Below, one piece after another: positions 5,178-57,500 of a stretch of 64,000 nt of DNA. Under the pieces are notes generated by a model that was not told where the DNA came from, searched no databases, and saw only the letters and a program-made list of their open reading frames with translations. The DNA is taken from assembly GCA_951213105.1 (NCBI GenBank), contig OX578133.1, forward strand, positions 138,799,203-138,863,202, written 5' to 3'. The DNA is from Amaurobius ferox (lineage: Eukaryota; Arthropoda; Arachnida; Araneae; Amaurobiidae). The position numbers and the translations under genes were made by a program. Numbering within the stretch: position 1 is the stretch's first letter; each line of letters opens with the position of its first letter.

Positions 5178-5736
5178 TGAAATAATATTTACCATGTATA
5201 TATGGCATTCAAGTTTTTCTTGAATTTTCATTAATATTTGTAAATTGCAAGATATATGCAATTAAATTCCCAAAAGAAGATTATTACAAAATAAGTGAAT
5301 TAACCTTGCAAATTAAAGCAACTTGTACAAAAAATATTTGCACCAATAGTCCAGAGTACCTATCAATAGGATGTTATAAATTTGACATTGCGTATATTTT
5401 TGTATTTTAAGATGTGAAGTAAATTGTAGAAATAAAAGACGAACACTATGATTTCGAGAAGAATTTGATAGGTAAACAAGCTCAAAAAGCTTTCGTTAAA
5501 TTCCGTTTAAATTCAAACAAAAAAAAGAATGTTAAAGATCTGTATTGATGATAAAAATGAACTCTGTGCTGTTACAATACAATCAACTGTAATAAGGATG
5601 AAGAAATACAGCTGCAAGTAGGAAACACAATGTTTTCTTGTCAAATAAAGAACTTAATAATTAAACTTCCTTCAATCAATGTTTGCTGCTCTCAAATTGG
5701 ACTGGATTGTTCGTGCTGTTTTCTTCCGTTCTTTTA
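5178..5736. other. AT-rich interval, no gene seen
   Basis: I see only short interrupted frames and no repeat that I can match elsewhere in the window. Confidence 0.6.
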
Positions 5737-7097
5737 ACACTTTACAACAAAGTTGAAAAGTGTTTATGACTTTGTTCATTCTGTCTATCTGTCCGTTAGC
5801 ACGATAACTGCCGTAAAAATGACTTAATCAAAATGAAATTTTAGTATGTTGTTCAGACGGTCTGTAGGACCTATGGGAATATAAATGAATAGTATCACCC
5901 AATTAGTTTTCCCGGCCTTCCAAATAGATGCTCAAGTCCTCAGGACGAGTCGGACGGTCTGGGTCTTCAACACCCAATTAGTTTTGGATTGAACCCGGGT
6001 TGAAAAAATGAAATACACTGAGTCCTATGGGACCTAATTTTTCAAACATTTTTTAAGCGAATTTAAAATTCACAAATTGCTTCAAAAATTTTAGGTAATA
6101 TTCAAATTGTTCCATAAAATATATAAAAAAAAATTCATCGAAATATATTCAGTAGTTTTTTAAATAAAAATTAAAATAATAATAACACCTCTTATATGAA
6201 GCGATCACGTGACCATGATATGAAAAGATCACTTGACCCACTTCAAAATGATATATGGCATCCATCTTGTCTCAAAATCGTGATTTTTAAAGTTCTTTTA
6301 AATTCATATTTAGTGTTGTATCCGTCCTAAAACCACTTTATTTCTGCTTAAATTCTGTGCATTTACATACTGAAACAACGGAATTACAATATTAAATGCT
6401 CATCCAAATTTGATTATTTCTACAACGAAGCCTATTTTTCACCTATGTAAAATGTAAACAGCAAAATATGTAGAATGAGTTGTATTAGAATTGCTGTATT
6501 TCTTTAACACAAAATCATTTAGTTCATGGAGTCTGCATAGCTGATATGAATGAAGTATTCAATGATTTTACAAAGAGAAGGACAATTTGTTTCGATGAAG
6601 TTTTAAGCATAGAGTTTAATTACTTGTAGCTCCATGGTCTTAATTTTTAAATAAAATAAATTATTATAGTATTGTGATGAATGACATGAATGGGAAATTA
6701 TTTATGAATGAAATGCTGCTTTTATAGAGAGAGCCAGCCGTATTATATTTTCTTTGACGTCATTTGAATGAATTTCAGTTGTTTTCGATGAAGTTTTCAA
6801 ATATAATAAATTATCGTAGTATTATGATAATTCTAAAATTATTACCGAGGAATGTATCGCATTTTAGAGATGTTTAAACCATGCAATTTATATTTCAATG
6901 CCGTCATTTGAATGAAGTTCATTTTTTTCGATGAAGGTTTAAGTTTTCAAATGTAATAAATTAATATAGTATTGTGATAAGTATTAAAATATTATCGAGG
7001 AATGCATTGCATTTTAGACTTGTTTAAATAAAATTGCATTGAAGTTGGAAAGTGTTTCATAATCAATGCTTTAAGCATGATTGATCTTTCTTGTTCT
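5737..7097 (+). mobile_element. Family A non-autonomous element, copy A1
   Basis: It begins TTAACACTTTACAACAAAG and ends around the imperfect hairpin tcaatgctttaagcatgatt and gatctttcttgtt. The whole interval matches the reverse complement of 55,527-56,843. The 3' half has internal tandem copies of a roughly 140-160 bp unit containing taataaattat, gaatgtatcgcat and tcatttgaatgaa. Copy A1 carries a 75 bp insertion (60 bp unit plus 15 bp duplication) that A2 lacks. There is no coding frame. The class is uncertain: the hairpin-ended, minisatellite-bearing layout is Helitron-like, but I see no CTRR end. Confidence 0.7.
5911..5970 (+). mobile_element. 60 bp SINE-like unit with 15 bp target duplication
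   Basis: The 60 bp insert lies between two perfect copies of CACCCAATTAGTTTT (5,896-5,910 and 5,971-5,985). The second family A copy, near 56,640-56,660 on the minus strand, has a single copy of that 15 bp sequence and no insert, so it represents the empty site. The unit contains CCTTCC, GGACGAGTCGGACGGTCTGG and a TCTTCAA tail. It has no poly(A). Confidence 0.85.
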
Positions 7098-11489: not shown

Positions 11490-12955
11490 TAGTGAAAATA
11501 AAACACCAAGAAGGAGAGAACAGAACGTGTTGAAAATCGGAAAACAGAGAGAGACAGCAACGAACAATAAGTGATGTTTATTGCAACATGATACACCTAT
11601 ATACTGAGCGATAACACCATCTGATCAGTAGGTTGTAGGACCACCGCGGGCGGCGATACAGGCAGCAACATATCTAGGTACAGAGTCAATGAGCGTGCGG
11701 ATGTTGTCCTGAGGGATGACTGCCCATTCCCTATCAACCATTTGCCAGAGTTCGTCTTCTAAACGCGGCGGTGGTAGCGCACGTAAGTGACGTCCAATAA
11801 CGTCCAAGACGTGTTCAATTGGTGAGAGATCAGGGGAGATGGCCTCGGGCCAGGGAAGATGGCCTGGGAGATCAGGGGAGATTGGTGAGAGATCAGGGGA
11901 TGGCCTGGGTTGTATCCAGGGAAGCACCTGGGTACCTTGCAGGGTATGTTGGCTGATGCGTACCGTGTGTGGTCGGGCGTAATCCTGCTGGTAAAAGGCA
12001 TTTTGAACCCCCTGAAGAAAGGGCAGTGTCACCGGCCGCAGCACGTCATCTACGTATCGTTGAGCCATCATAGTGCCCTCAATAAGGACCAGAAATGACC
12101 TGCTATCGTAGGCGATGGCGACCCAAACCATGATGCCGCGTTGTCGGGCGGTGTGGCGTTCCACAGATGCGGCCGGATTGGACCTGTCACCGCTTCGGCG
12201 CCAGACTCGTGCATGGCGACTGTCATTGCTAAAACAAAAGCGTGACTCGTCTGAGAAAACGACCCTGTGCCATTTCGCCGTCCACGTGGCTCTATCCTGA
12301 CATCATTGCAAAACGAAGGCATCTGTGCTGTTGGGTCAATAGCAGTCTTCTGAACGGGCGCCATGAGTGCAGGTCGCCAGCGACCAATCAGCGGATAATG
12401 GTCCTGGTCGATATGGGAACAGCAAAGTGTGTTCTGCACATGCTGTAAAATGGCTACGGAAGTGGCCTGCGAGGCCGTCAACGATTGCCTGCGGATGCGT
12501 CGGCCCACGCGTGCTGACGTCGCTTTGGCCATACCTGCACCCCTCAAACGTATCACATTCCCTTGTTCCAACCATCTTCGCCACAGCCGGTACACCGTGG
12601 ACGCGTGTGGATGTCCGCTGATATTTGACGTATGGATCAACCTGCCCTTTTGAATCCGATCACCATAGCGCTCATGAAACCGTCTGTCTGCTGGAACTGC
12701 CTCGGTTGGCGGTGGCCTGGCATTTTCTGCTGCTACACGTTTTTTCTGACACACAAAAAAAAATGCAAAATGATTTCCCTGACAGACAGAACGACGCGAC
12801 TATTGCCGATTCTGAAGGTTCTTTCCCTTATATCTCACTCAACGTGCGCGGGATAGCTGCACATATCGCATCATTTACATAACTCGGTGAGCTGCGTCTA
12901 CCCTGCAATTTGCATATTTTTCTGCCCACTCCTTCTTGTTGTCTCATTTTCACTG
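11490..12955 (-). mobile_element. Decayed Tc1-like transposon
   Basis: The borders are set by imperfect terminal inverted repeats. The left end (from 11,490) reads tagtgaaaataaaacacc then aagaaggag. The right end, read on the minus strand from 12,955, gives agtgaaaatgagacaac then aagaaggag. The GC content is far above that of the flanks, and the interval contains the broken transposase described separately. The length of about 1.47 kb fits the superfamily. No clear TA duplication survives. Confidence 0.8.
11625..12754 (-). pseudogene. Broken Tc1-like transposase
   Basis: The minus strand encodes a Tc1-type transposase spread over frames. The N-terminal part (from about 12,754) shows helix-turn-helix-like text (HASTVYRLWRRWLEQG). 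After frame changes, an open stretch from about 12,290 down to 11,625 contains VFSDESRF (first catalytic Asp), MVWVAIAYDSRS, QQDYARPHT (second Asp), DLSPIEHV (catalytic Glu) and the C-terminal IAARGGPTTY typical of this arthropod lineage. A local duplication of about 20 codons rich in SPDLSPI lies between the second Asp and the Glu, stretching the usual 34-residue spacing to roughly 55. Frameshifts plus this expansion make activity very unlikely. Confidence 0.85.
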
Positions 12956-28140: not shown

Positions 28141-28628
28141 TATATAAACTCAAAAGACAATAACCCTGAAAACCTTACGATCGAGATGAAAACAAGAACG
28201 AAAAGAAAACATACGGGCTAGGTGCAATAAAAGGGCCAATGAGGGATAGTGACCTCATTTAAGTCCCGGTTACCAGCCGGCTGCTCGGTCGCGACACCAC
28301 TTCCGGAAGCCTTCACGCATCCGTAGTTAACCTCATAGTGACCACGAAAAACGAACATGAAAGATCCAAAAGATTTGGTTGGGATCTTTCAATGTTCTTT
28401 TGGATCTTTCATGTTCGTTTTTCGTGGTCACTATGAGGTTAACTACGGATGTGTGCAGACTTCCGGGAGTGGTGTCGCGACCGCGCAGCCGGCTGGTAAC
28501 CGCGACTTAAATGAGGTCACTATCCCTCATTGGCCCTTTTATTGCACCTAGCCCGTATGTTTTCCTTTCGTTCTTGTTTTCATCTCGATCGTTAGGTTTT
28601 CAGAATTATTGTCTTTTGAGTTTATATA
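28141..28628. mobile_element. Near-perfect fold-back element, 233 bp arms
   Basis: The arms 28,141-28,373 and 28,396-28,628 are inverted copies with a constant coordinate sum of 56,769, so there are no net indels. The few visible differences include ccgg/cgcg-type changes near 28,264 and 28,500. The loop is 22 bp. The element is GC-richer than its surroundings and sits in a (TA)n tract on its left. It has no coding capacity; the 64-codon frame over the loop is a by-product. Confidence 0.9.
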
Positions 28629-36158: not shown

Positions 36159-36986
36159 ATTTCTTATTAAATGATTGTTTGCGTTTATTTTAAATTTGCC
36201 GAAGATACATAATTATACTTAAACAAACATATTACCTTTCTCAAGTAATATGTCAACATGTAAATGTTTTATTACTTGTCCTTTTCATAAAACTACGCTT
36301 ACATGATCTATGACCGATGTCTGTAGACATGGTTAACTGCTGTTTGAGTAGCAAAATAACCTTGGTCTCCACAAGTACCTTACGACATAAGATGTAATTT
36401 GATGCTGAACTTTGTGAGTATTAAAGAACTCTCTTTTGGTTTCGCGTCCTTGTTCAAGTATTTATAAATAAGATATGAAGGGCGAAGCAAAACTTATTAA
36501 TTACGTTTTTATGAGGCAGAACCTGACTATAAATATTTTGGGGATAAATATTAAATGAGTTATGGGGGAGTTAGATAATTTTGTTTGGAGAATATGAATA
36601 AGTAAATGTTTTATGCCCTGTCTTCGAAAAACATTTTTTCTCGTGATGGATATGAATATGATTGTTATTTTTTTTCTTTGTGATAATGAATTTTAGAGTA
36701 ACAAAGCAATATAAATATCCATTAAAAATGAAGCTGTGAATTTCATTATTATGGGTATGAGGAAACAAACATTTTTGTTTGTCATTAAACATTTTTCATT
36801 TTTCTGAATAGTCTATATAATGATTATGTAACTTCTTTCTGCCTTTGAAGACCCTCCAGAAACTTCCGATGACCTTGAAGACTGAATCTTTATACACTTA
36901 TAGTATTGACCACGGTACAGAACTTAACGAATCCAAATTTTCGATTCTTTTCCTCAAGGGAAGGGTGAGGAAATGGGGTTTCAAAA
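36159..36986. other. Interval left of the Polinton
   Basis: 36,159-36,830 is AT-rich without a gene. From about 36,840 to 36,986 it resembles the satellite on the other side of the Polinton: cacttatagtattgacc, cggtacagaactta and aaattttcgattctttt match words at 46,322-46,380. The transposon therefore landed in a repeat. Confidence 0.6.
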
Positions 36987-36992
36987 CATATT
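36987..36992 (+). repeat. Left target-site duplication CATATT
   Basis: CATATT immediately precedes the left terminal repeat and is repeated at 46,173-46,178 immediately after the right one. Six base pairs is the duplication length typical of Polinton/Maverick insertion. Confidence 0.85.
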
Positions 36993-37020
36993 AGTAGGGG
37001 ATTAGGGAGAGTTCAGCGGC
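36993..37020 (+). repeat. Left terminal inverted repeat, 28 bp
   Basis: It begins AGTAGGGGATTAGGGAGAGT and ends CAGCGGC, and is perfectly complementary to 46,145-46,172. The match stops at once inside the element, so the repeat is much shorter than the hundreds of bases usual for Polintons. Confidence 0.9.
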
Positions 37021-38551
37021 CTCGATACACAGTAGCTTGTTTCAGGCATTTTCCATCAGGCCCTATAATAACATAAGCATATCCACAAGGTTCATGAATC
37101 GCTAGTCTATGCGTGTAAGATCTAATATTCGAGGGTTTAGTAGTGTCTTCTTTAACGATCAGGGCTTCAAAGTCAGCATAAATGATGAAAGGGATAGAAT
37201 GCTGATACTGTTTGTTCGTGAATTGGAGATATTTCTGATCTTCCGAGGGCATTTTAATGCGCTGAGGTGCATGTTCTTTGCAATATTGAGCATGATCTTG
37301 CAAAAGATCGTCTCTGCTGTAACGATGTAAACATCTATAACATATATATTGGGCTCCATTGTGCTTAGTTATATCTCCCAGAAAGCGTGACATATTCCTT
37401 ATGAGAGTATAGTGTTGCTTATCTTCATCACTAATCAGCAGGAGATTCACACAGTCTTCATCTTCACGTTTGGATATATGCAAAGGAAAAATATCTTCAT
37501 CTTCGTATCCATATACATTTATTCGTATATTATTCAATTTTTCAATCTGAGGAATCTTCACAACTGAGATAGGGTATTGAATATCTCCAAGTTTAATGTC
37601 ATTTTCAAAACTTTTATAATGTGACACTCTTTCAGGCTTATATTCACGGGATATATAGTATTTGTGGGCTAATAGGCACCACACCAGGCATTTCTCGTCT
37701 TCATTTCGAATATTGAGTAAAGCTTTCTTGGCTGCAAGTTTTGTTGGCAAGGCTATATAGCTAGAAGCTGCAAGAGGCTTATACTTTGCACAGAAAACAT
37801 CTATCTTTCGCATCTTTTGTAAAGTCCATCCAGAGCCTCGGCTGACAAATTCTTCGAATAACTTCAAGATTTGTGAAAAAGCTTCTTCAGCATTGTTGGG
37901 AGGGGTATCATCACGAAGTTCTGTCACAACATCTGTTCTAAAATATGAGCTGGATACCTGTTGGCCATTTGCAACGTCACGAATAAATTGCACATCCGCA
38001 ATAAGATACCACTTAATAGATCTGTATGCATCAAGTTCGTCTTTTAATATCTTCAATAGCTGAGGGCGAATTTCATCAAAACATAGCATAAGATCCCTCT
38101 CTACACTTTCAGTAGGTTCCAGAGTGTGTACAGAGAATACATCTAAACCCTTCTTCTTCTTCGCTGCAATCTTGGGGCGTTTATTAGAAGTTGAGGCTAA
38201 AGCAGGAGCTTTCCTCTTTTTAGAACCGTGTTCAATACGCTGGTGGCGCAGGGCATCACTTTTCTTGCTGAATATAAGTTCACAATGCTTGCATTTCACA
38301 CCATCCTTCAGATGAAGTATCATATGGCGCTTCAGGTTATCTCGTCTAGTAAACTGTATGGAGCATTGAGTGCATTCAAACACTTTAACGGGAGAATGCG
38401 TATTCGCATGTCTAGCCAAGTCTTCCTTACGAACAAATGCACGTTCGCATACTTTACATCGATAAGTCAAGACATCATCGTCAGAATGAACCCTCATATG
38501 CCGCACTAAGCTTCGTTTTGCCATGAAGCTCTTCGCGCAAGTAGGACACAC
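37013..38551 (-). pseudogene. Truncated second copy of the polymerase gene, exon 2
   Basis: The minus strand repeats codons 1-510 of polymerase exon 2 without a change, then runs into the left terminal repeat, where the frame stops at TGA (37,013-37,015). It keeps the four C2H2 zinc fingers, the basic stretch and exonuclease motif I (D460, E462), but lacks the HNH insert, exonuclease motifs II and III and all polymerase motifs. With its own exon 1 (38,846-38,932) and intron (38,552-38,845) it could encode about 540 residues: a DNA-binding fragment without polymerase activity. Whether it is expressed, for instance as a regulator of element replication, is unknown. Confidence 0.8.
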
Positions 38552-39696
38552 CTGTAATAGATAAAAAAATACAAGACTTTAGTATAAACACGCTATTCTC
38601 GGGAACAATGCAATACATGCCTCAAGATGTATATAAAGTAATTGCTAACCCATTATACTATCCCCATTAGAAATAATAAAATTCCTGAATTAAAGAATAT
38701 ATTCAGATACAAGACATTTCATGTAAGACCCCCAAGACATTTCATTAAATTCATAAAAACACTCATTAAAAAAGTTGTTACGCATCATAAAAATACAAAG
38801 TTTAATAAAATAATAGAATAAAATCACATTAAAACAAGTACTTACATGCCCAATCCTGTTCAAAGAGGGTGCATTACGCACGTCAGTAACGGTAGGGATA
38901 GTACCTCCGATATTACTTTCTAAAACCGACATATTCGCAGAGCAACTTCAAACACGACTTAACAGCACGAAACTCACAACAGAAATGATAAAATCGCTGC
39001 TTAAAGACCACCTACATCCATTCATAAAAAATAGTTCCTGGTGTATCCTTCCGCCAAGGTCACCCCAAGGTTATTCCTAAAGAGTTTTTCGTGTATCCCT
39101 CCGCCAAGGTCACGTGATAGTTATATCACGGTTACCGTTAAACTTGCAACACACGAATGTAATTATGCACACATCCGATAAAAAATAAACAATTCATTCA
39201 ACATCGCAATCGATCCTTTTTAATAATCGTAATCGATACATTAAATAAATTCACATCTTTAAAAAATAATAGATTTTAATAAAATAATGAAAGAAAATCC
39301 CTTTGCGAGACCCCTTAAAACCTCCAATCCTTAAACAATACAGCAACGCGCAAGCATAAAAACCCCCCGAATAACATATACTCCTCTCTCCCCCTCCCTC
39401 CCCGAGACACCAACACTCACTTCACCACATGTTAAACGTAACCCATAGCAACCGGAATCCATAATAAAACATTCACCTTCACCCCCAACGTACATCCAAA
39501 TACACAGTCATTCAACGTGAAACCCGTAATTTTACAGCAAAAATCACTTTACAGGGATTCATAGAACAAAAAATCCTAAAAAATCAACAAATTCACCCAG
39601 AAACTAGCTAAAACCCTCAAATTACTTATAATTATCATCTACATATGCTATATAACCATTTACAACCTTAAAAAGGTGAGTATGCTAGTAGTAAAG
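37020..39696 (-). repeat. Left palindrome arm, 2,677 bp
   Basis: Every position p in this arm pairs with 79,576 minus p in the right arm (39,880-42,556) with no indel. All the stretches I compared by eye, coding and non-coding, are identical, and the translated frames of both arms agree in several reading frames. The arm ends exactly at the left terminal repeat, sharing one base with it. Confidence 0.95.
38846..38932 (-). CDS. Exon 1 of the truncated polymerase copy
   Basis: This is the mirror image of 40,644-40,730: ATG at 38,930-38,932, 29 codons ending at CAT|GTAAGT. Both splice sites of the following intron (38,552-38,845) are conserved because the arm is an identical copy. Confidence 0.7.
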
Positions 39697-39879
39697 GAAG
39701 GTGGGTTCGCCAGAATGCGGTTAGAGCAATGCCGCCAAATTTTTTCTCCAAAATTTTTACCCCCACCTTTTTTCATTCTCCCCCCCCCCCTTTTACACCC
39801 CCGTCCAGGATTACGAAAATCCAAGATGGCGGCCCTACCGCATACCGCACATACCGCCTTTGCAGCAGAACACCCCTTT
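39697..39879. promoter_or_regulatory. 183 bp spacer between divergent polymerase copies
   Basis: The spacer is the only non-duplicated DNA between the two gene copies. It is GC-richer than most of the window, with a C-run (39,781-39,790) and the word CCAAGATGGCGGCC (39,821-39,834), which contains the AAGATGGCGGC core of YY1-type sites. The first ATG codons lie about 765 bp away on each side, so promoter elements could also be in the arms. Its position suggests a shared or bidirectional control region, or the scar of fold-back synthesis. Function is inferred only. Confidence 0.35.
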
Positions 39880-40464
39880 CTTTACTACTAGCATACTCAC
39901 CTTTTTAAGGTTGTAAATGGTTATATAGCATATGTAGATGATAATTATAAGTAATTTGAGGGTTTTAGCTAGTTTCTGGGTGAATTTGTTGATTTTTTAG
40001 GATTTTTTGTTCTATGAATCCCTGTAAAGTGATTTTTGCTGTAAAATTACGGGTTTCACGTTGAATGACTGTGTATTTGGATGTACGTTGGGGGTGAAGG
40101 TGAATGTTTTATTATGGATTCCGGTTGCTATGGGTTACGTTTAACATGTGGTGAAGTGAGTGTTGGTGTCTCGGGGAGGGAGGGGGAGAGAGGAGTATAT
40201 GTTATTCGGGGGGTTTTTATGCTTGCGCGTTGCTGTATTGTTTAAGGATTGGAGGTTTTAAGGGGTCTCGCAAAGGGATTTTCTTTCATTATTTTATTAA
40301 AATCTATTATTTTTTAAAGATGTGAATTTATTTAATGTATCGATTACGATTATTAAAAAGGATCGATTGCGATGTTGAATGAATTGTTTATTTTTTATCG
40401 GATGTGTGCATAATTACATTCGTGTGTTGCAAGTTTAACGGTAACCGTGATATAACTATCACGT

Positions 40465-40535
40465 GACCTTGGCGGAGGGATACACGAAAAACTCTTTAGG
40501 AATAACCTTGGGGTGACCTTGGCGGAAGGATACAC
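40465..40535 (+). promoter_or_regulatory. Direct repeats upstream of the polymerase start
   Basis: GACCTTGGCGGAGGGATACA C at 40,465-40,485 and the same with one change at 40,515-40,535 lie 50 bp apart, 110-180 bp before the ATG. The mirror set is at 39,041-39,061 and 39,091-39,111. The spacing suggests a protein-binding site pair; this is inference. Confidence 0.35.
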
Positions 40536-40643
40536 CAGGAACTATTTTTTATGAATGGATGTAGGTGGTCTTTAAGCAGCGATTTTATCATTTCTGTTGT
40601 GAGTTTCGTGCTGTTAAGTCGTGTTTGAAGTTGCTCTGCGAAT

Positions 40644-40730
40644 ATGTCGGTTTTAGAAAGTAATATCGGAGGTACTATCCCTACCGTTACTGACGTGCGT
40701 AATGCACCCTCTTTGAACAGGATTGGGCAT
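40644..40730 (+). CDS. Polymerase exon 1
   Basis: Twenty-nine codons from the ATG at 40,644 (MSVLESNIGGTIPT...) end at CAT followed by GTAAGTACTT, a consensus donor. The intron 40,731-41,024 (294 bp) ends TATTACAG. Splicing is in phase 0 and joins His to the Val-Cys-Pro that opens zinc finger 1. The 80-codon frame that reads through the donor is intron read-through. No other ATG precedes the zinc fingers in frame, so this exon supplies the start. Confidence 0.7.
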
Positions 40731-41024
40731 GTAAGTACTTGTTTTAATGTGATTTTATTCTATTATTTTATTAAACTTTGTATTTTTATGATGCGTAACA
40801 ACTTTTTTAATGAGTGTTTTTATGAATTTAATGAAATGTCTTGGGGGTCTTACATGAAATGTCTTGTATCTGAATATATTCTTTAATTCAGGAATTTTAT
40901 TATTTCTAATGGGGATAGTATAATGGGTTAGCAATTACTTTATATACATCTTGAGGCATGTATTGCATTGTTCCCGAGAATAGCGTGTTTATACTAAAGT
41001 CTTGTATTTTTTTATCTATTACAG

Positions 41025-44000
41025 GTGTGTCCTACTTGCGCGAAGAGCTTCATGGCAAAACGAAGCTTAGTGCGGCATATGAGGGTTCATTCTGACGATG
41101 ATGTCTTGACTTATCGATGTAAAGTATGCGAACGTGCATTTGTTCGTAAGGAAGACTTGGCTAGACATGCGAATACGCATTCTCCCGTTAAAGTGTTTGA
41201 ATGCACTCAATGCTCCATACAGTTTACTAGACGAGATAACCTGAAGCGCCATATGATACTTCATCTGAAGGATGGTGTGAAATGCAAGCATTGTGAACTT
41301 ATATTCAGCAAGAAAAGTGATGCCCTGCGCCACCAGCGTATTGAACACGGTTCTAAAAAGAGGAAAGCTCCTGCTTTAGCCTCAACTTCTAATAAACGCC
41401 CCAAGATTGCAGCGAAGAAGAAGAAGGGTTTAGATGTATTCTCTGTACACACTCTGGAACCTACTGAAAGTGTAGAGAGGGATCTTATGCTATGTTTTGA
41501 TGAAATTCGCCCTCAGCTATTGAAGATATTAAAAGACGAACTTGATGCATACAGATCTATTAAGTGGTATCTTATTGCGGATGTGCAATTTATTCGTGAC
41601 GTTGCAAATGGCCAACAGGTATCCAGCTCATATTTTAGAACAGATGTTGTGACAGAACTTCGTGATGATACCCCTCCCAACAATGCTGAAGAAGCTTTTT
41701 CACAAATCTTGAAGTTATTCGAAGAATTTGTCAGCCGAGGCTCTGGATGGACTTTACAAAAGATGCGAAAGATAGATGTTTTCTGTGCAAAGTATAAGCC
41801 TCTTGCAGCTTCTAGCTATATAGCCTTGCCAACAAAACTTGCAGCCAAGAAAGCTTTACTCAATATTCGAAATGAAGACGAGAAATGCCTGGTGTGGTGC
41901 CTATTAGCCCACAAATACTATATATCCCGTGAATATAAGCCTGAAAGAGTGTCACATTATAAAAGTTTTGAAAATGACATTAAACTTGGAGATATTCAAT
42001 ACCCTATCTCAGTTGTGAAGATTCCTCAGATTGAAAAATTGAATAATATACGAATAAATGTATATGGATACGAAGATGAAGATATTTTTCCTTTGCATAT
42101 ATCCAAACGTGAAGATGAAGACTGTGTGAATCTCCTGCTGATTAGTGATGAAGATAAGCAACACTATACTCTCATAAGGAATATGTCACGCTTTCTGGGA
42201 GATATAACTAAGCACAATGGAGCCCAATATATATGTTATAGATGTTTACATCGTTACAGCAGAGACGATCTTTTGCAAGATCATGCTCAATATTGCAAAG
42301 AACATGCACCTCAGCGCATTAAAATGCCCTCGGAAGATCAGAAATATCTCCAATTCACGAACAAACAGTATCAGCATTCTATCCCTTTCATCATTTATGC
42401 TGACTTTGAAGCCCTGATCGTTAAAGAAGACACTACTAAACCCTCGAATATTAGATCTTACACGCATAGACTAGCGATTCATGAACCTTGTGGATATGCT
42501 TATGTTATTATAGGGCCTGATGGAAAATGCCTGAAACAAGCTACTGTGTATCGAGGTATCGACCCTGTGGATCATTTTCTTAACAACTTGATAATGGAGA
42601 AACAGTATCTTGGAGAAAAATTACGTTATGTTAAACCACTACGAATGACTAAAGAGAATGAAGTTGACATTGAAAGAGCTACCCATTGTAACGTGTGCCA
42701 TCGTGAACTGAAAACAGATCGTGTGCGTGATCACAATCACGTGACTGGAGCCTATAGAGGTGCCCTGCATAATGCCTGTAATCTTAACTATAGACAAAGT
42801 ATTAATATTCCTGTAGTGTTTCATAATTTAAAAAATTATGACTCTCATCATATTATGCTGAGTTTTGGGAAATTGCAAGACCATAAAATTGATGTGATTG
42901 CCATTAATATTGAAAAATACATATCTTTTAAGATTTCAAAGAAAGAGGGGCCCCGTGTCTGTTTACAATTTATTGATAGCCTACAGTTTCTGAATGCTTC
43001 CCTGGAAAAGCTAGTTTCCAATTTAGACTTGAGTGAATTTTATATTCTCAGAGAACATTTCCCCGATATAGTACAACAGAATGCTCTTATTAGGAAAGGA
43101 GTATATCCCTATAGCTATATGACATCCTTTCAAAAATTTGATGAAAATGTACTCCCTCCCCCTTCTGCATTTCATAATGATATTAAAGGAGAAGATATTA
43201 AGAGTGAAGATTATCGGCATGCCCAAACTGTATGGGATACCTTCAACATAAAGAACTTGGGAGAATATCACGACCTGTATGTGAAAACAGATGTGCTACT
43301 ATTAGCCGATGTATTTGAGAATTTTCGAAAAATTTGCAAGAAGAACTATGATTTAGACGCCGCTCATATGATGACCGCCCCTGGACTGGCTTGGCAGGCC
43401 TCTTTGAAAATGACTGAGCAAACCCTGGAACTACTCACAGATGAAAATATGTTACTGTTTATAGAACGTGGAATCCGCGGTGGCATATGTATGATAAGTC
43501 AGCGTAGATCCGAGGCTAATAATCGTTATTTGGAAAATTACGATTCTTCTAAGCCTGATAAGCACATTATCTATCTTGATGCTAATAACCTATATGGTTG
43601 GGCCATGTCTCAACCACTGCCCTATGGTGGCTTTGAATGGATATCTACAGAAAATTTGAATGAATTCTGGATAATGAGTCTAAAGGATAATACCCAAGAG
43701 GGATATATATTTGAAGTGGATCTGGAGTATCCTGAATCCTTACATGATTATCATAATGAATACCCTCTAGCCCCTGAAAGGGTGAAGATTGAACGAGAAA
43801 TGCTCTCCCCCTATGCTGAACGACTAGTTCAACAGTTACATCATGGACATTTTGTTAGTACTACGAAATTGGTACCCAATCTGCATGACAAGAAACATTA
43901 TATTGTTCACTATCGGAACCTTCAGCTATACCTATCATTAGGTTTAAGACTCAAGAAAATTCACAAGACCTTAAAATTTAATCAGAAGCCCTGGTTGGAG

Positions 44001-44840
44001 AAATACATCCAATTTAACACAGAAGAAAGAAAGAAGGCAAAGACTAATTTTGAGAAAGACTTTTTTAAATTGCTTAATAACGCTGTGTTTGGAAAAACGA
44101 TGGAGAATCTTCGAAATCGAGTGAATATTGAACTAGTGAATTCTTCAAAGCGGGCCCTGAAGGTGGTGGCATCTCCAGCTTTTAGAGCTATCAGGATTTT
44201 TAGCGAAGATCTGGTGGGTGTTGAGCGTGTAAGGAATTGCATTTTAATGAACCGGCCTATATACGTTGGCTTTGCTATCTTGGAGTTATCTAAACTCCTG
44301 ATGTATGAGTTTCATTATAAACATATTAAAAGCCAATATGGTGAAAAAGCTTCGCTTCTCTTCACCGATACTGATTCATTGGCTTATGAAATCCAAACTG
44401 CTGATATTTAGGAAGATATGAACCAGCATAAACACTTGTATGATTTTTCTGACTATCCCAAGGATCATCCCCTCTTCAGTGAAGACAATAAAAAGCGTAT
44501 TGGATATTTTAAAGATGAACTGAATTCAACCCCCATTCAAGAGTTTATAGGACTTAGACCTAAAATGTACTCTATTCTATCAGCTGCTGGAGAAAAGAAA
44601 AGAGCTAAAGGTGTTTCTACACATGTGGTTGCACGGAAAATTACACATAATGACTATAGACAATGCCTGTTGAGTGTTAGACCTACCATGGAAGAACAGA
44701 TTAGAATTGATAGTAGTCATCATAAACTATTCACTGTATGCCAGAACAAGGTGGCTTTGTCACCCATTGATGACAAAAGATATTTACTCGAGGACGGCAT
44801 TACAAGTTATGCCTACGGACATTTTAAAATAAAAAAATAA
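41025..44840 (+). pseudogene. polB: Family B (protein-primed type) DNA polymerase, exon 2, with one in-frame TAG
   Basis: Exon 2 opens after TTACAG at 41,025. Residues counted from there: four C2H2 zinc fingers (about 2-22, 30-52, 59-80, 84-108); a Lys/Arg-rich nuclear-signal-like stretch (112-135); exonuclease motif I D460/E462; an HNH/endonuclease VII-like insert with C555-x2-C558, D569-H-N-H572, H582 and C585; exonuclease II N604/D606; exonuclease III Y752-x3-D756; polymerase motif A D852-x3-LY857; motif B K1015...FG1023; motif C DTDS 1115-1118. A single TAG (44,409-44,411) follows motif C; the same frame then stays open through 44,840 with a typical family C-terminus (DDKRYLLEDG). The enzyme would copy linear element DNA from a protein primer. 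It is either recently inactivated, read through, or a sequencing error. Confidence 0.9.
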
Positions 44841-45147
44841 AAAAAGGAAAAAAGAGAAAGAAGGAAAAAAAAAAAAAAGAAGGAAAAAATAGGAAAAAAG
44901 AAAAAAAAAGAAATTGTGGCGGTGTATCCTATACACCGGGTGGAGGTGGGACCACAATTAAAAAAAATATATATTTTTCTAACAGCATCTAATTTCTTAA
45001 AAAGACCTTACCCCATTTGGATAGTTGAAAACAAGTATCTGCTATTATTTAAAATATTTATGTTTACAAATATTAAAATTTTGAAATCCAAGCCCAGAAT
45101 GGTTGAGGAAAGACATCCCTTAAACCCCCGAGATTCCCGAGATTCTC
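44841..45147. other. A-rich 3' flank of the polymerase gene
   Basis: It follows the TAA with a purine-rich A/G run (44,841-44,912), then a perfect 7 bp palindrome GGTGTATcctATACACC (44,921-44,937). There is no gene, and a polyadenylation region is plausible here. Confidence 0.45.
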
Positions 45148-45418
45148 GAAATTCTGCTACTTTAAAACACCAATTCACGCGATTCTGCTACTTTAAAACA
45201 CCAATTCACGCGATTCTGCTACTTTAAAACACCAATTCACGCGATTCTGCTACTTTAAAACACCAATTCACGCGATTCTGCTACTTTAAAACACCAATTC
45301 ACGCGATTCTACTACTTTAAAACACCAATTCACGCGATTCTGCTACTTTAAAACACCAATTCACGCGATTCTACTACTTTAAAACACCGATTCACGCGAT
45401 TCTGCTACTTTTAAAACG
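45148..45418 (+). repeat. 31 bp minisatellite, about 8.7 copies
   Basis: The unit GATTCTGCTACTTTAAAACA CCAATTCACGC repeats with a strict 31 base step (starts at 45,181, 45,212, 45,243, 45,274 and onward). The few variants are single changes, such as ctgcta to ctacta. Confidence 0.95.
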
Positions 45419-45448
45419 TGTTTTTCTTAGTTTTTACAAGTAAAAAGT

Positions 45449-45860
45449 ATGTTTTTGAAAAAAAATCGCAAAATGTCACATTTTTCAAAAAACGCATTTT
45501 TGGTAACACTTTTGCAAAAACGCACATTTTTTAAAAAAAAATGTAAAAGTGCGAAAACCTATGTTAATTCCCATAGAGAAAACGGCATTTTGAAAAAAAA
45601 TCGCAAAATGTCACATTTTTCAAAAAACGCTTTTTTGGTAACACTTTTGCAAAAACGCACATTTTTTTTACAAAAAATGCACAAAAGTGCGAAAACCCAT
45701 GTTATTTCCCATAGAGAATTCAAACAATCTAAAAACCACAATTTATTTTAAAAACGTACATTTTTGTTGTTTTTTAACGTTTTTGAAACTTTTTGTGAAA
45801 AAACGCTAAAAGTGACACTTTCTTAAAAATTCATGTTATTTCCCATAGAGAAATCCAACA
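45449..45860 (+). repeat. Tandem repeat of about 137 bp, three diverging units
   Basis: The first two units (about 45,449 and 45,586) are nearly identical: aaatcgcaaaatgtcacatt, caaaaaacgc, ggtaacacttttgcaaaaac, then cccatagagaa. A third, more divergent unit ends near 45,852 with the same catagagaa. The 100-codon frame across them only mirrors the repeat. The unit ends at gaa-rich DNA without features up to 45,944. Confidence 0.85.
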
Positions 45861-45979
45861 ACCCTCAAAATCCAACTTGTTGAAAAAAAACTTACATTTT
45901 AGAAAAATTATAAGAAAAAAACTTACATTTACGAAATTTTGTTACTAAAAAGGAAAAACAATATACGTCATAAACTCCA

Positions 45980-46144
45980 CTCTCTTCTGTGACGTCACCT
46001 TATGGAGCTGTGCTGCCTCACACCGACTTCTGAGAACCCCTATGTTAAAGCATGGGACTTTACCACCGCCTCTGTTGATGCACTCATTTTCTGGCCTCGG
46101 AGGGTTCCCCATGTTAAAGTATAGGGATTCACCGCCTCTGAAGT
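45980..46144. repeat. Subterminal repeats of the Polinton
   Basis: Two related phrases lie just inside the right terminal repeat: catgttaaag...ggga(c/t)t...caccgcctctg at about 46,041-46,074 and 46,109-46,140. Such subterminal direct repeats often bind transposition proteins; that role is inferred. They have no counterpart at the left end, where the palindrome arm abuts the terminal repeat. Confidence 0.55.
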
Positions 46145-46172
46145 GCCGCTGAACTCTCCCTAATCCCCTACT
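46145..46172 (-). repeat. Right terminal inverted repeat, 28 bp
   Basis: It is the perfect complement of 36,993-37,020 and ends CCCTAATCCCCTACT. It is followed directly by the target duplication CATATT (46,173-46,178). Confidence 0.9.
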
Positions 46173-46178
46173 CATATT

Positions 46179-46530
46179 TTTGTCCCTCTAGAAGGTCCTC
46201 GTTGACCAAGAGCCGAATTTTTAATTCCATTCTTCAAGGTTGATAAAAGGGGATGTTTTCTCAAAGTCTTTTCACCTCCCAAAGCTCCCGTTGAACTGAA
46301 CTAGACTGCTAAATGCTTGCACACTTATAGTATCGATCACGGGACAGAACCTAATGGAGCCGAATTTTCGATCCCTTTCCCCGGGGTGAAAAGAGGGTAT
46401 TTACGACAAACCTTCCAGGCCCTTCCAACCTTCCAGGTCCTTCCAACCCCCCCCCCCCTCCTCCGCATTGAGTAGATAGCTAAATATTTGTGCACTCAAG
46501 AATCGATTACGGGGCAGAACTTAACTCGAC
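46179..46530 (+). repeat. Satellite-like repeat hosting the Polinton
   Basis: Units of about 170 bp contain cacttatagtatcgatcac, gggacagaac, agccgaattttcga and a G/A-rich tail. One unit is at 46,322, the next at 46,492 and a partial unit near 46,200. A related unit precedes the Polinton at about 36,890. From 46,531 to 46,985 I see nothing notable. Confidence 0.6.
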
Positions 46531-50053: not shown

Positions 50054-51986
50054 TTTTGCTATTGTATTTATGCATAAATTTATGTTTTCTTTATTTAGTC
50101 ATATTACACAAAGCATTCTGCTATTTTGCAATTGAATGCCATTTTCATATTTAAAAATGGAAAGAGTGTACCGTTTATATACTTATAATGGACAGCATAT
50201 ATGCCTCTTATTTACTATATTATTTTAAAATTTTTGTTAAATAATTTTCTTAAGCTTTTCAATGTGTTAACTTTTTTATTTTATATAGTAGCCACTTTAC
50301 CCCACTCTGTTAGGTAAAGTGGTCATTTGATATGACTGTATTTATTTAAATATTATAAGACACATAATCAACAAAGAACTAAATTCATGCAAAAGCATAA
50401 ATTTACATAAATCATATTATTGGTTAAAAGTATTATTTTAATTTTAAAAACTGATTAGTATTTTTTAAAATTAATTTTCTTAGAGTGGACACTGTACACA
50501 CTATTTCCTTACTTAAGGTAAATATAGTAATTATTTACATGTTCAGAGTGGTATGTGGTGGATAGCAATCTTAGTTAGCAATCCATCTGAGCAATCCAGG
50601 AGACCCAGAAAAGTTCTTTGGCTTTGGCCGATTGTTTTTCAGGACCATAAATGAGGTGTAATACTCTACTACACAATACCTCATTTTTAATTTAAGACTT
50701 TAATCTCAAAGAAATTCAGAAATACCATCTCTCAAAAGCATTTCAAGCAAAGTCTGAATCTAAGCAATTTCTTTGAAAACATTACATTTTCTTTGAATGG
50801 TAAAATTATGATTGGCAAAATGTGTGATAAAATTGTGTTTTCTCAGCTGATAGAGAAAAAGAATAAATTTCAAAAAACAAATGAAGGTATAAATTAATGA
50901 GTAAATCGAAAGGAAATTCCAAAGTAAGATTACACTTATAAATTGCATTACATACTCCACACACGAGAATTGTTTTAGAAGGGGAATATTTATTGGAGAA
51001 TTGTTTAGAAACTTGCACGCTATTTTTGACACTGATTAAATTTCTTTTCAACTTTGCTTTTACAAGAATGACATTCTAAATGGAATTTCGGCAACTTTAT
51101 ACATAAGAACAAAAGTTATTAAAATAAACAAGTTTAACATTTAAGAGAAATTCGATTACAGAAATGTTTGAACTAATATAGGAGGAAAAGTAAGAAATGT
51201 TTTATCTTTGTCTGTGATAAAAGGAATTTTAAAAACTAACTAGAAGTAGGGTTGCTAACCGGTAGTGTATGTTTTGGTAATTGCGGGTTGAATTCAAGAG
51301 AACAGGAGAGAAGATAAGAAGATCTATGGCATACATAGATTGAGAAGAATATATATGGCTCACATAGATTAACTTTAAAAATAATATTGTAAAATTAAAA
51401 AAGTGAAAATATTATCTTTTAAGTTATATTATTTTTTATAGAGATCTAATATCGTGAACAGGTTAAGAGCGTATGAACTCACGCAGTCGTAAATCTCTGC
51501 AGCAATGAAGAAATAATCAAGTGGATATCAAATAGAGCGAAATGTATTGTGGACATCGAATTATTTAATTTGTAGCTGCACATATTTGTTTACATGAGAA
51601 AATATAGGAAACGGTTACTTGTACTAGCATATGCTGTGGCTTACACGGTTCGCTATGAAATCAGATACACAACTCGGCACAGAACTGTATAAACTTTAAA
51701 TAAAGCCCTTAGGTATCTCAAACCAAAGAACATTTACTTGGATCCATAATATAGCTGCAGTCCGGGCTAACTGCGACAGGGTTTTCAAGAGCATCTAGAA
51801 TAAATTAATATACATCATCAGTTAGGAAAAGTTCGAAGACATCACTGCTCATCTCTACATTAAGACCTCCTATAGACAACATCTGGAAATTTTAACTGTG
51901 TGTTGACGAGCATTATTGCACTGGGAAAGGCATTGATAGATAATTTAAAAAAAAGTAACGGTACTTGATGCATTGCAGGAATGTCG
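50054..51986. other. AT-rich interval, no gene seen
   Basis: Short frames on the minus strand at 50,760-51,051 overlap each other in two frames and have no family resemblance. No repeat is matched. Confidence 0.55.
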
Positions 51987-52905
51987 AAATTAAAGCTCTT
52001 GACCTGTTATAATGAATGAAAACCCATACGATAATAACTCGTCGAATAATAGTGTACTGTGTAGTCAGATTTGGTCTTTAACCAAGCATATTGGTGCTAC
52101 CTTTGGAACAATGACAGTTTATTAAATGGCTGACAAGTGCTTAGGCCTACCCCTACCAATGTCTAGCATGCCGTTTGAGTTACGATGGGAATGCAAATGA
52201 TAATAGCTTCAGCCTGCTAATTGATCGTAATAAATTTCTGTCACACCACATGTTTCAAGAGCGGCTAATACTTCTAAATACGCGTACTGACGTTAGTCTA
52301 AATGCGCTAGTCCTATTGAGGCTGGTGCATTCTTTCGTTCAACTATTATTGAATATTTATTTCAATCATTGCTCCCAAAAACATGTAAAGGACAGAGTCT
52401 TATCTCAGCCGGGAATCGGATATCGAAGTTAACGCTCTTAACCTGTTGTAATGGATGAAGACCCATACGATAACTCGTCGAATAATAGTGTGCTGTGTAG
52501 CGAGATTTTGTATTTAACCAAGCATATTGGTGCTACCTTTGGAACAATGACAGTTGATTAAATGGCTGACAAGAGCTTAGGCCTACCCCTATCAATGTCT
52601 AGCATACCGTTCGAGTTTTGATGGAAATGCCAATGATAATAGCTACAGCCTGCATCGTTATAAATTTCTGTCAAACCACATGTTTCAAGAGCGACTAATA
52701 CATCTAAATACGCGTACTGACGTTAGTCTAAATGCGCCAGTTCTAGTGAGGCTGGTGCATTCTTTCGTTCAACAATTATTAAATAGTTCTTTCAACCATT
52801 CCTCCCAAGAACATGTAAAGGACAGAGCCTTATCTCAACCGGGAATTGACCCACGGATCTTTGTACTGATCAGCCGACGCTCTACGTTAAGCTACTAGGA
52901 CGAAA
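51987..52905 (-). mobile_element. Tandem pair of a tRNA-derived SINE
   Basis: Two units of about 438 bp (51,987-52,424 and 52,425-52,905) are similar throughout, for example tcaagagcg(a/g)ctaatac, aatacgcgtactgacgttag and aggctggtgcattctttcgt. On the minus strand the 52,905 end has a tRNA-like head: an A-box-like region with tagagcgtcggctgatcag, then a B-box-like gggtcaattcccggttg. The first unit lacks most of the head. It is not a tRNA gene: the acceptor stem and a normal T-loop are missing. Confidence 0.7.
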
Positions 52906-54539: not shown

Positions 54540-57500
54540 TGCTTGGAAAAATGGAAATTACTATTTCTGTCGGGGCGAGAGAATAACATCATGTTGCTTA
54601 TGCAGCGGATATTTATGACCCATGTGTTCTCGAACTGGACTTCATAAAAAAATAATATGAATTTGATCAGAACTTCAAAAACAATGAATTACGGACAGTC
54701 ACCTAAAATATTCCTTTTCTTGAAACAGAAATGGGACACATCCTAGAATGTAACATAGTTAGTACAGGATGTGTTTCATTGTCTGCCTGTAGCAAGTATT
54801 TAATGAAAGTAGTCCGAAAAGGCCCAAGAACCTGTGAAATGGCTGTAACAGGGTTTCCAGCTCCTGAGTATAAAGGTAAAACAATAGAAATCTTGTGGCT
54901 ACGGTTCTCTGGATATTTCAAGAAGAGGCTACGTCCCTGTCCGAGTTGTACACATTATCGACCAACCTAAAATAATCCATAAAGGGGAGCAGTTAGTTTC
55001 ATGCTCTGTGGTGGCCAGCGTGATGCGTGGTTGTAAAGAAGGAAGCAGCAGCAGTTCTGAACATTTAAATATCACCTTAAGTAATCTCGTCCGACGAAAG
55101 CGTGCAGATGAGGAGGCGTTTAAAAGGCCTATTTCTGTTTTCTCGACTGCTTCAAAAGGCTTGGGACGCACAAGACTAACTCGACATAGAATCGATACAT
55201 GTAACCAATTTCCGATTAAACAAGCTCCTTGAAGACTTCCGCTCGCTAAGAAAGAAGAAATAGACAAGTTTTTCAAAGACATGCAGGAAAGCTACCTAAT
55301 CGAGCCACCTTGAAATCCTTTTGCCTCACCAATCCTTTTAGTGAGAAAATAGGATTCTACAAGATTATGCGTCTACTCTAGAAGATTCAACTTCGTGACA
55401 AAGAAAAACAGCTATCCACTGCAAAGAATTGAGAACACTTCAAATACTCCCTCCGGGAGTAAGTGGTTTTCGAATCTAGATCTCAAGGGTGGTTACTGGC
55501 AAGCAGAAATTCATGCCGATGATTGAAAACAAGAAAGATCAATCATGCTTAAAGCATTGATTGTGAAACACTTTCCAACTTCAATGCAATTTTATTTTAA
55601 AAAGTCGAAAATGCAATACATTCCTCGGTAATATTTTAAAACTTATCACAATACTACATTGATTTATTATATTTGAAAACTTAAACTTTCATTGAAAAAA
55701 ATGAACTTCATTCAAATGACGGCATTGAAGTATAAATTGCCTTGTTTAAATATCTCTAAAATGCGATACATTCCACGGTAATATTTTTAAAACTATCATA
55801 ATACTACGATAATTTATTATATTTGAAAACTTCATCGAAAACAACTGAAATAAATTCAAATGACGTCATAGAAAAAATAACACGCCTGGATCTCTCTATA
55901 AAAGCAGGATTTCATTCATAACTTTCTCCATTTCATTAATCACAATACTATAATAATTTATTTTATTTAAAAATTAAGACCATGGAGCTACAATTCATAA
56001 CCTTTATGCTTAAAACTTCATCGAAAAAAATCGTCCTTCTGTTTATAAAATCAATTAATATTTCATTCATATCAGCCATGCAGACTCCATGGACTGAATT
56101 ATTTTGTGTTAAAGAAATACAGTAATTCTAATACAACTCATTCTACATATTTTGCTGTTTACATTTTACATAGGTGAAAAATAGGCTTAGTTGTAGAAAT
56201 AATCAAATTTAAATGAGAATTTAAACTCAAATATATATTGTCATTGTGTTGTTTTAGTATGTAGATGCACAGAATTTAAGCAAAAATAAAGTAGTTTTAG
56301 GACGGATACAACACTCAATATGAATTAAAAAGAACTTTAAAAAATCACGACTTTGAAACAAGATGGATGCCATATATCATTTTGAAGTGGGTCATGTGAT
56401 CGTTTCATATCATGGTCACGTGATCGTTTCATATAAGATGTGTAATTATTATTTTAATTTTTATTTAAAAAACTACTGAATATATTTCGCTGAATTTTTT
56501 TTTATATATTTTATGGAACAATTTGACTATTACCTAAAATTTTCGAAGCAATTTGTGAATTTTAAATCAGCTTAAAAAATGTTTGAAAAATTAGGTCCCA
56601 TAGGGCTCAATGTATTTCATTTTTTTAACCCGGGTTCAATCCAAAACTAATTGGGTGATATTATTCATTTATATTCCCATAGGTCCTACAGACCGTCTGA
56701 ACAACATACTACTAAAATTTCATTTTGATTAAGTCATTTTTACGGCAGTTATCGTGCTAACGGACAGACAGACAGACAGACAGACAGACAGCATGAACAA
56801 AGTCATAAACACTTTTCAACTTTGTTGTAAAGTGTTAAAAAGGCGTCTTCACCTGACAAGAGCTCTGAAAGTTTACAATGATGCATTTTGGACTTTGTAA
56901 TGCCTCCGCAACTTTTGAATATCTAATGGGAACTATGCTGAAAAGGCACTCCTGTGAATCCTGCCATGCCTACTTGGACAATATAATACTGTTGGGAGAT
57001 CATTTGACGAAAATTTATAACATCTTAGGCAGGTATTTGAAAAATTAAAGATTGCTAATTAAAAATTAAATAATTTAATTTAAAATTAAATATGAAATTT
57101 CTACAATGCAAATAGTTCCAAAAGGAAATCGCTTATTTGGGACATATCATTTTTGAGGAGGGTATAAGGATCAATCCTGACAAAACCAATGCTGACAAAG
57201 AATGGTGCAGACCGCAGGATATTCATCAACTAAGTTTCTTCAGCCTGTGTACCTATTACCGTTGGTTTATGAGGAACTTCTCTAACACTGCCAGGCCATT
57301 AGATAGGTTAGCAGAAGGTGACAAGAAGTATGAATGGACGGCGAAGTATAAAAACGCCTTCAATTGACGTAAGGAAATGCTAATTCCAGCTTCCATTCTG
57401 GCATACCCCCAACCAACGGAGAGCTTTATACTCGACATCGATGCTAGTGAAGAAGGAATAGGAGCAGTTCACTCCCAGAAAATAGGAGGCCCGGAACGTA

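Follow-up and report, generated by a model that had tools for sequence, protein, structure and literature searches.

The stretch analysed here (the window) comprises 64,000 nucleotides of contig OX578133.1 from the spider Amaurobius ferox and contains, between positions 36,993 and 46,172, a Polinton-type element with a gene for a family B DNA polymerase (polB). The element is bounded by terminal repeats of 28 bp at 36,993-37,020 (forward strand) and 46,145-46,172 (reverse strand), which are identical at 28/28 positions, and comparison of the flanks revealed the 6-bp target site duplication (TSD) CATATT on both sides (36,987-36,992 and 46,173-46,178). Within the window, the 20-bp terminal motif was found only at the two element ends (0 expected after shuffling). 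Alignment of the interior showed two inverted arms, 37,020-39,696 (reverse strand) and 39,880-42,556 (forward strand), which are exact reverse complements over 2,677 bp with 0 mismatches and are separated by a non-coding centre of 183 bp (39,697-39,879), in agreement with the perfect palindrome of 2.68 kb reported in the preliminary description of the locus. The 0 differences in 2,677 bp place the 95% upper bound of arm divergence at 0.11%. The exact match breaks off at both ends, and 12 further bases on the inner side agree at 9 positions.

The two halves of the element are unequal. The right arm ends inside polB, as had been described, and base 37,020 is common to the left arm and the left terminal repeat. 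Taking 42,557-46,144 out of the right half and reverse-complementing what remains reproduces the whole left half (36,993-39,696), with one shared base at the joint; the window element could therefore be a full head-to-head palindrome in which one arm lost 3,588 bp. A search of the A. ferox genome (3.56 Gb in 276 contigs) that tolerated 2 mismatches at most gave a single occurrence of the 37,020 joint, so the left-arm deletion is private to the window copy. When positions 36,900-37,300 were used as query, one of the best 40 of 1,178 candidates was the window locus and the other 39 matched at 100% from exactly 37,020 inward. One of these was the right arm of the window element itself; the 38 outside the window comprised 15 pairs in inverted orientation, spanning 4.2-6.3 kb, and 8 unpaired places. 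Position 37,020 is a deletion joint, and although the left arm does meet the terminal repeat with one shared base, as the preliminary description held, it is not a natural edge of the duplication. The forward-strand segment 42,557-46,144 is the portion of the right arm whose left counterpart was deleted, as evidenced by the comparison of the halves, the other copies and the unique joint. It contains 31-bp tandem repeats in the subterminal region (45,142-45,420, forward strand).

The right polB gene (40,644-44,408, forward strand) has a predicted exon 1 at 40,644-40,730 that joins in frame to 41,025, the start of an exon 2 extending to 44,840 according to splice prediction and motif alignment. 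Its product has an endonuclease VII-like segment and, at the N terminus, C2H2 zinc fingers, both also found in several spider relatives, and it contains family B motifs that align with those of the relatives. A stop codon at 44,409-44,411 interrupts the gene, with 142 further codons after it in the same frame, and was present in 1 of 21 arms. The left copy (reverse strand) mirrors the right one in its predicted exon 1 (38,846-38,932) and has a truncated exon 2 (37,013-38,551), the frame of which runs into the terminal repeat and meets a stop codon there, giving 541 codons in total. Among the best 120 of 331 polB relatives, the best full-length ones were ~51-54% identical, several of them being named spider proteins. 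One relative with 52% identity, P0003, matched the DNA_pol_B_2 model at 2.3e-20; the window polB itself gave no match to this model. Sequence searches of the PDB listed only zinc-finger proteins (60 of 173 and 60 of 309 matches listed), and NCBIfam and PHROGs gave weak zinc-finger and endonuclease VII matches. Judged by its motifs and by P0003, polB was assigned to the family B polymerases of protein-primed (organellar and viral) type, with a putative priming activity, which upholds its earlier description as a Polinton-type polymerase. No relative appeared in the prokaryote contigs searched with polB, and the one relative in viral contigs, a distant one (38% identical), belongs to contig L001, where genes for an rve integrase and a Pox_A32 ATPase are present as well; the polB of L001 has a weak endonuclease VII match below the cut-off. 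The exact terminal repeat occurred 0 times in viral contigs. Integrase (rve), ATPase, protease and capsid genes gave no match among the six window open reading frames scanned; the interiors of the remaining copies could be aligned with these polB arms, although they were not gene-scanned one by one. The Rfam scan of the window gave 0 hits at gathering cut-offs.

The family end, AGTAGGGGATTAGGG, was found genome-wide, and its copies begin with AGTAGG. Searching for the 28-bp end with up to 2 mismatches gave 213 forward and 210 reverse occurrences (control, 0), and from these 423 ends the family was estimated at ~200 copies. Among the 100 end places listed, 84 formed 42 facing pairs, including the window, with a median size of 12,645 bp (all 42) and 35/42 measuring 12.1-13.6 kb. 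The usual form is ~12.6 kb long and consists of two inverted arms of ~6 kb, each with an outward-reading polB, around a short non-coding centre and between 6-bp target duplications. We read 16 other copies, namely ten of the 15 inverted pairs and six copies of unusual size, and all 16 contained inverted polB arms. In the first ten the polB region was present in both arms, and the longest aligned block between arms was 99.37-99.97% identical over 4.5-6.4 kb; nine had both terminal repeats and the tenth runs rightward into another copy. The six of unusual size included deletion derivatives of 8.1 kb, lacking most of one arm, and of 10.3 kb, without inner parts, as well as a copy with ~394 bp lost from one arm and another of 21.85 kb holding a large unrelated stretch. 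Since longer palindromes of this family are common throughout the genome and the joint at 37,020 is single, being palindromic is characteristic of the family, and the joint in the window marks a deletion that one arm suffered afterwards; the window copy is to be grouped with the deletion derivatives. Its terminal repeats and 6-bp duplication are present as first reported, but the repeat is not intact, as the 28 bp are the remnant of an inverted repeat that elsewhere spans the whole arm of ~6 kb.

The centres of 12 other copies measured 80-1,277 bp, and 11 of the 12 share related stretches whose best pieces are 82-100% identical. The centre of the copy at C7:59.5 Mb (1,277 bp, rearranged) shares no stretch with the other centres by the same test. 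The window centre is a shortened relative of the others, shorter than those of most copies read, and the position of the boundary between arm and centre varies among copies. The relatedness of the centres suggests that the palindrome probably arose once. Two other accounts of its origin were discarded. The imperfect repeat at the inner edge (9/12; P = 0.00014 by spacer shuffling; 19 of 38,166 other window sites) was considered as the trace of recent fold-back priming, but the family arm of other copies extends into these bases and the boundary is variable. A nested insertion was rejected as the centre lacks the terminal motif.

The reading covered both ends of 35 copies (the window, 9 plus 5 of the 16 copies read, and 20 more), of which 30 showed a perfect direct 6-bp TSD, 1 a TSD with one mismatch, 1 none and 3 an inverted flank. 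The perfect direct TSDs indicate that the element inserts as a palindrome, as a unit, and the earlier suggestion of a single insertion is thus borne out. In the window it inserted between two host repeat units that are 74.5% similar (36,853-36,953 and 46,275-46,380, forward strand), the starts of which would lie ~240 bp apart without the element. In the three copies with inverted flanks (C10:5.74-5.75, C9:3.94-3.96 and C2:88.42-88.43 Mb), the sequence reads as if one arm and its flank had been copied across. At C10:5.7 Mb the palindrome extends 1,109 bp into host DNA and at C9:3.9 Mb 83 bp, being exact and ending abruptly in both; at C2:88.4 Mb it covers all 30 bp of flank that were read and so measures at least that much. 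Two copies ~74 kb apart, at C5:114.85 and C5:114.93 Mb, have TSDs that are mutual reverse complements (CATGTG and CACATG), which may be due to chance or to duplication of the region in inverted orientation.

The arms of each copy are much closer to each other than to those of other copies. Over ~3.9 kb, the difference between arms within a copy was 0-0.18% (ten copies; 0/1,443 for the window) and that between copies was 0.54-2.22%, with a median of 1.49% (55 pairs). The nearest arm was the own partner for 22/22 arms, and a maximum-likelihood tree grouped the two arms of a copy as sisters in 11/11 pairs; support was starred (at least 97/94) for ten of the pairs, and the arms of the eleventh were identical. 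End-to-end alignment of arms, including the repeat-rich subterminal part, gave 0.05-0.36% substitutions in 11/12 copies and 3.9% in the twelfth (C9:6.9 Mb), whose right piece runs into another copy. In polB, the ratio of replacement to silent polymorphism (pN/pS) between copies was 0.138, summed over the 55 pairs; the arms of one copy differed by 4 silent and 17 replacement changes, which is near neutral. In ungapped coding columns, private variants present on both arms comprised 57 silent and 35 replacement changes and those on a single arm 4 silent and 16 replacement changes (Fisher P = 9.4e-4), with a neutral expectation of ~79% replacement. Variants shared among several copies were on both arms in 58/58 cases, the window entering the variant-sharing counts with its right arm only. 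The few private coding variants of the window were 2 replacements on both arms and, where the partner is deleted, 3 replacements, 1 stop and 1 silent change. By a simple indel count, 9/21 arms had no early stop and no net frame change. These data show that purifying selection acts on polB in the lineage that moves. Had the similarity of the arms been acquired chiefly after insertion, the both-arm variants would be expected to appear neutral. They are instead replacement-poor, so most of them originated while the lineage was functional and already stood on both arms before the element inserted. The clustering of arms by copy (11/11) and the contrast in substitutions indicate that both halves are copied from one template.

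Comparison with known systems places the element near Polintons/Mavericks. It shares with them a polB of protein-primed type, 6-bp TSDs and terminal inverted repeats with AG/AGT-type ends, its AGTAG start recalling the (AGT)2 motif (PMC8097293). Intact vertebrate Mavericks measure 12.7-24.6 kb and have repeats of 46-1,447 bp, seven or eight genes and (AGT)2 or (AG)3 ends (PMC8097293). Here, in contrast, the repeat is the whole arm, half the element and far beyond the length range of that survey, and polB is the only gene, present twice; the window open reading frames scanned contained no rve integrase and no ATPase, protease or capsid gene. Because integrase and capsid genes are absent, we filed the element as a Polinton-derived palindromic polB-only variant and not as a canonical Polinton. 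Other systems resemble it in part. Mu killer of maize is an internally deleted inverted element with both terminal repeats from one end, but it is a single silencing locus of a cut-and-paste transposon and not a transposing family (PMC3440606). The snapback genomes of adeno-associated virus are half genomes that are self-complementary, in symmetric or asymmetric form, and carry the same end at either terminus; however, they are by-products of a hairpin-primed parvovirus, neither protein-primed nor a TSD-bearing family (PMC8235507). Galileo and other Foldback-like elements have copies that are nearly all inverted repeat and vary by recombination, but Galileo belongs to the P superfamily, has 7-bp duplications and repeats of up to ~1.26 kb, and its long-repeat copies lack the coding gene (PMC3573991). 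Fold-back chromosomal inverted duplications also place inverted copies around a spacer but are single rearrangements (PMC3907307, PMC10622511); they may account for the three inverted-flank copies. Judged by titles and the beginnings of abstracts, in a coverage that leaves out most subscription journals, no description of a palindromic Polinton was recognised.

Taken together, the window element is probably a deletion-bearing copy of a high-copy palindromic polB-only Polinton family, in which both arms are templated from one half and integration depends on a helper integrase. Before or at insertion, one functional half would template both halves, a step strongly supported by the arm comparisons. 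Most likely, protein-primed strand displacement would free a self-complementary strand, which would then snap back, or pair as a panhandle as in adenovirus, and be copied or repaired from its own other half. The preliminary description had proposed a fold-back style of copying, which still appears the likely cause; however, it placed this in a rebuilding of the one element followed by joining to the terminus, and the palindrome is family-wide. Since no integrase was found inside the element, it is presumably supplied in trans by other Polintons. The scored candidates for the Pox_A32 ATPase (best 150 of 2,008) and for an integrase-like gene with the L001 query (best 129 of 8,398) in the host genome included seven loci, found by eye, where both start 1.5-1.8 kb apart on one strand, and a list-to-list comparison placed none of the ATPase places listed inside the 42 facing pairs. 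Other Polintons with ATPase and integrase genes thus exist abundantly in this genome; a helper with matching ends is hypothetical. After insertion the arms would drift and suffer deletions, such as the loss of 3,588 bp from the left arm of the window copy and the private stop in its right polB.

Several observations weigh against this interpretation. The snap-back intermediate and the helper are both hypothetical. The inverted flank of 3/35 copies implies that copying from arm to arm also occurs on the chromosome; one copy is without a TSD and one has a TSD mismatch, and 16 of the 100 end places listed are unpaired. The 55 copy pairs summed for pN/pS are not independent, and the ten copies of the arm test were chosen by a 100% match to a 281-bp stretch, which biases them toward young copies. 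The same inverted flanks speak for a rival reading, in which the palindrome would be inherited intact and the identity of its arms owed mostly to gene conversion or break-induced copying once it has inserted, as between the arms of Y-chromosome palindromes. Their 100% identity over 1,109 bp and 83 bp, and over at least 30 bp in the third copy, shows an arm and its flank copied in place, and known fold-back repair yields similar shapes (PMC3907307, PMC10622511). Copying between arms on the chromosome plays some part, given these flanks. As the main source of arm identity, however, it is unlikely: flanks were copied in only 3/35 copies, and both-arm private variants (57:35) are replacement-poor against the neutral ~79%, unlike the single-arm ones (4:16), so that most predate insertion.

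The remaining alternatives fare worse. The layout resembles that of Mu killer, in which partial copies in inverted orientation are flanked by repeats from a single end (PMC3440606), and the family might accordingly act chiefly in silencing, through hairpin RNA of polB. The selection on the protein sequence of polB, the orientation of its copies, which point away from each other, and the hundreds of ends, which are not a single silencing locus, make this very improbable. The unique joint at 37,020 with its one shared base could be taken for a one-off fold-back synthesis in the window element whose product was then joined to its own terminus; with inverted arms in 16/16 other copies read, mostly longer and with related centres, this is extremely improbable. 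An assembly artefact, at this locus or family-wide, has in its favour the perfect identity of the window arms and the fact that the palindromes are known from the assembly alone and not from reads. The preliminary description had proposed a search for other insertions sharing the 37,020 joint as a check, and none were found; yet this did not point to an artefact. The perfect TSDs in 30/35 copies, the copy-specific arm differences and the inverted flanks ending abruptly at differing lengths leave the artefact a negligible chance.

A different extension of the favoured interpretation is offered only tentatively, and we consider it rather doubtful. The true genome might be a half-length hairpin of ~6.5 kb, formed by one arm and the loop with a protein-primed end, and the palindrome of 12.6 kb would be its integrated duplex dimer. 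The family would then be a protein-primed replicator gone over to hairpin-style copying, with only its own polymerase and a borrowed integrase, both arms being reset from one template in each cycle. If so, the three inverted-flank copies would be single-ended joins of the hairpin.

Elsewhere in the window, a second, unrelated inverted repeat was identified at 28,141-28,628, with arms of 233 nt that are 96% complementary and spaced by 22 nt. Related stretches in opposite orientation lie at 5,731-7,095 and 55,528-57,100 (main block 91.6% over 1,137 bp), and a 430-bp unit occurs in two tandem copies with 89% matches at 51,984-52,846. Positions 11,625-12,799 contain a broken Tc1-type transposase in two frames, whose best named relatives are in Cordylochernes.

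Long perfect palindromes are usually unstable. Despite this, an element of ~12.6 kb that is one large palindrome has spread, judging by its ends, to ~200 copies in A. ferox. Its arms are renewed like the long terminal repeats of retrotransposons, so that each copy records its own making and the changes in single arms date the copy. The arms are in this way a record, readable from sequence, of how a protein-primed element copies itself, and the family as a whole suggests a polB-only replicator that is under selection and dependent on helper Polintons.

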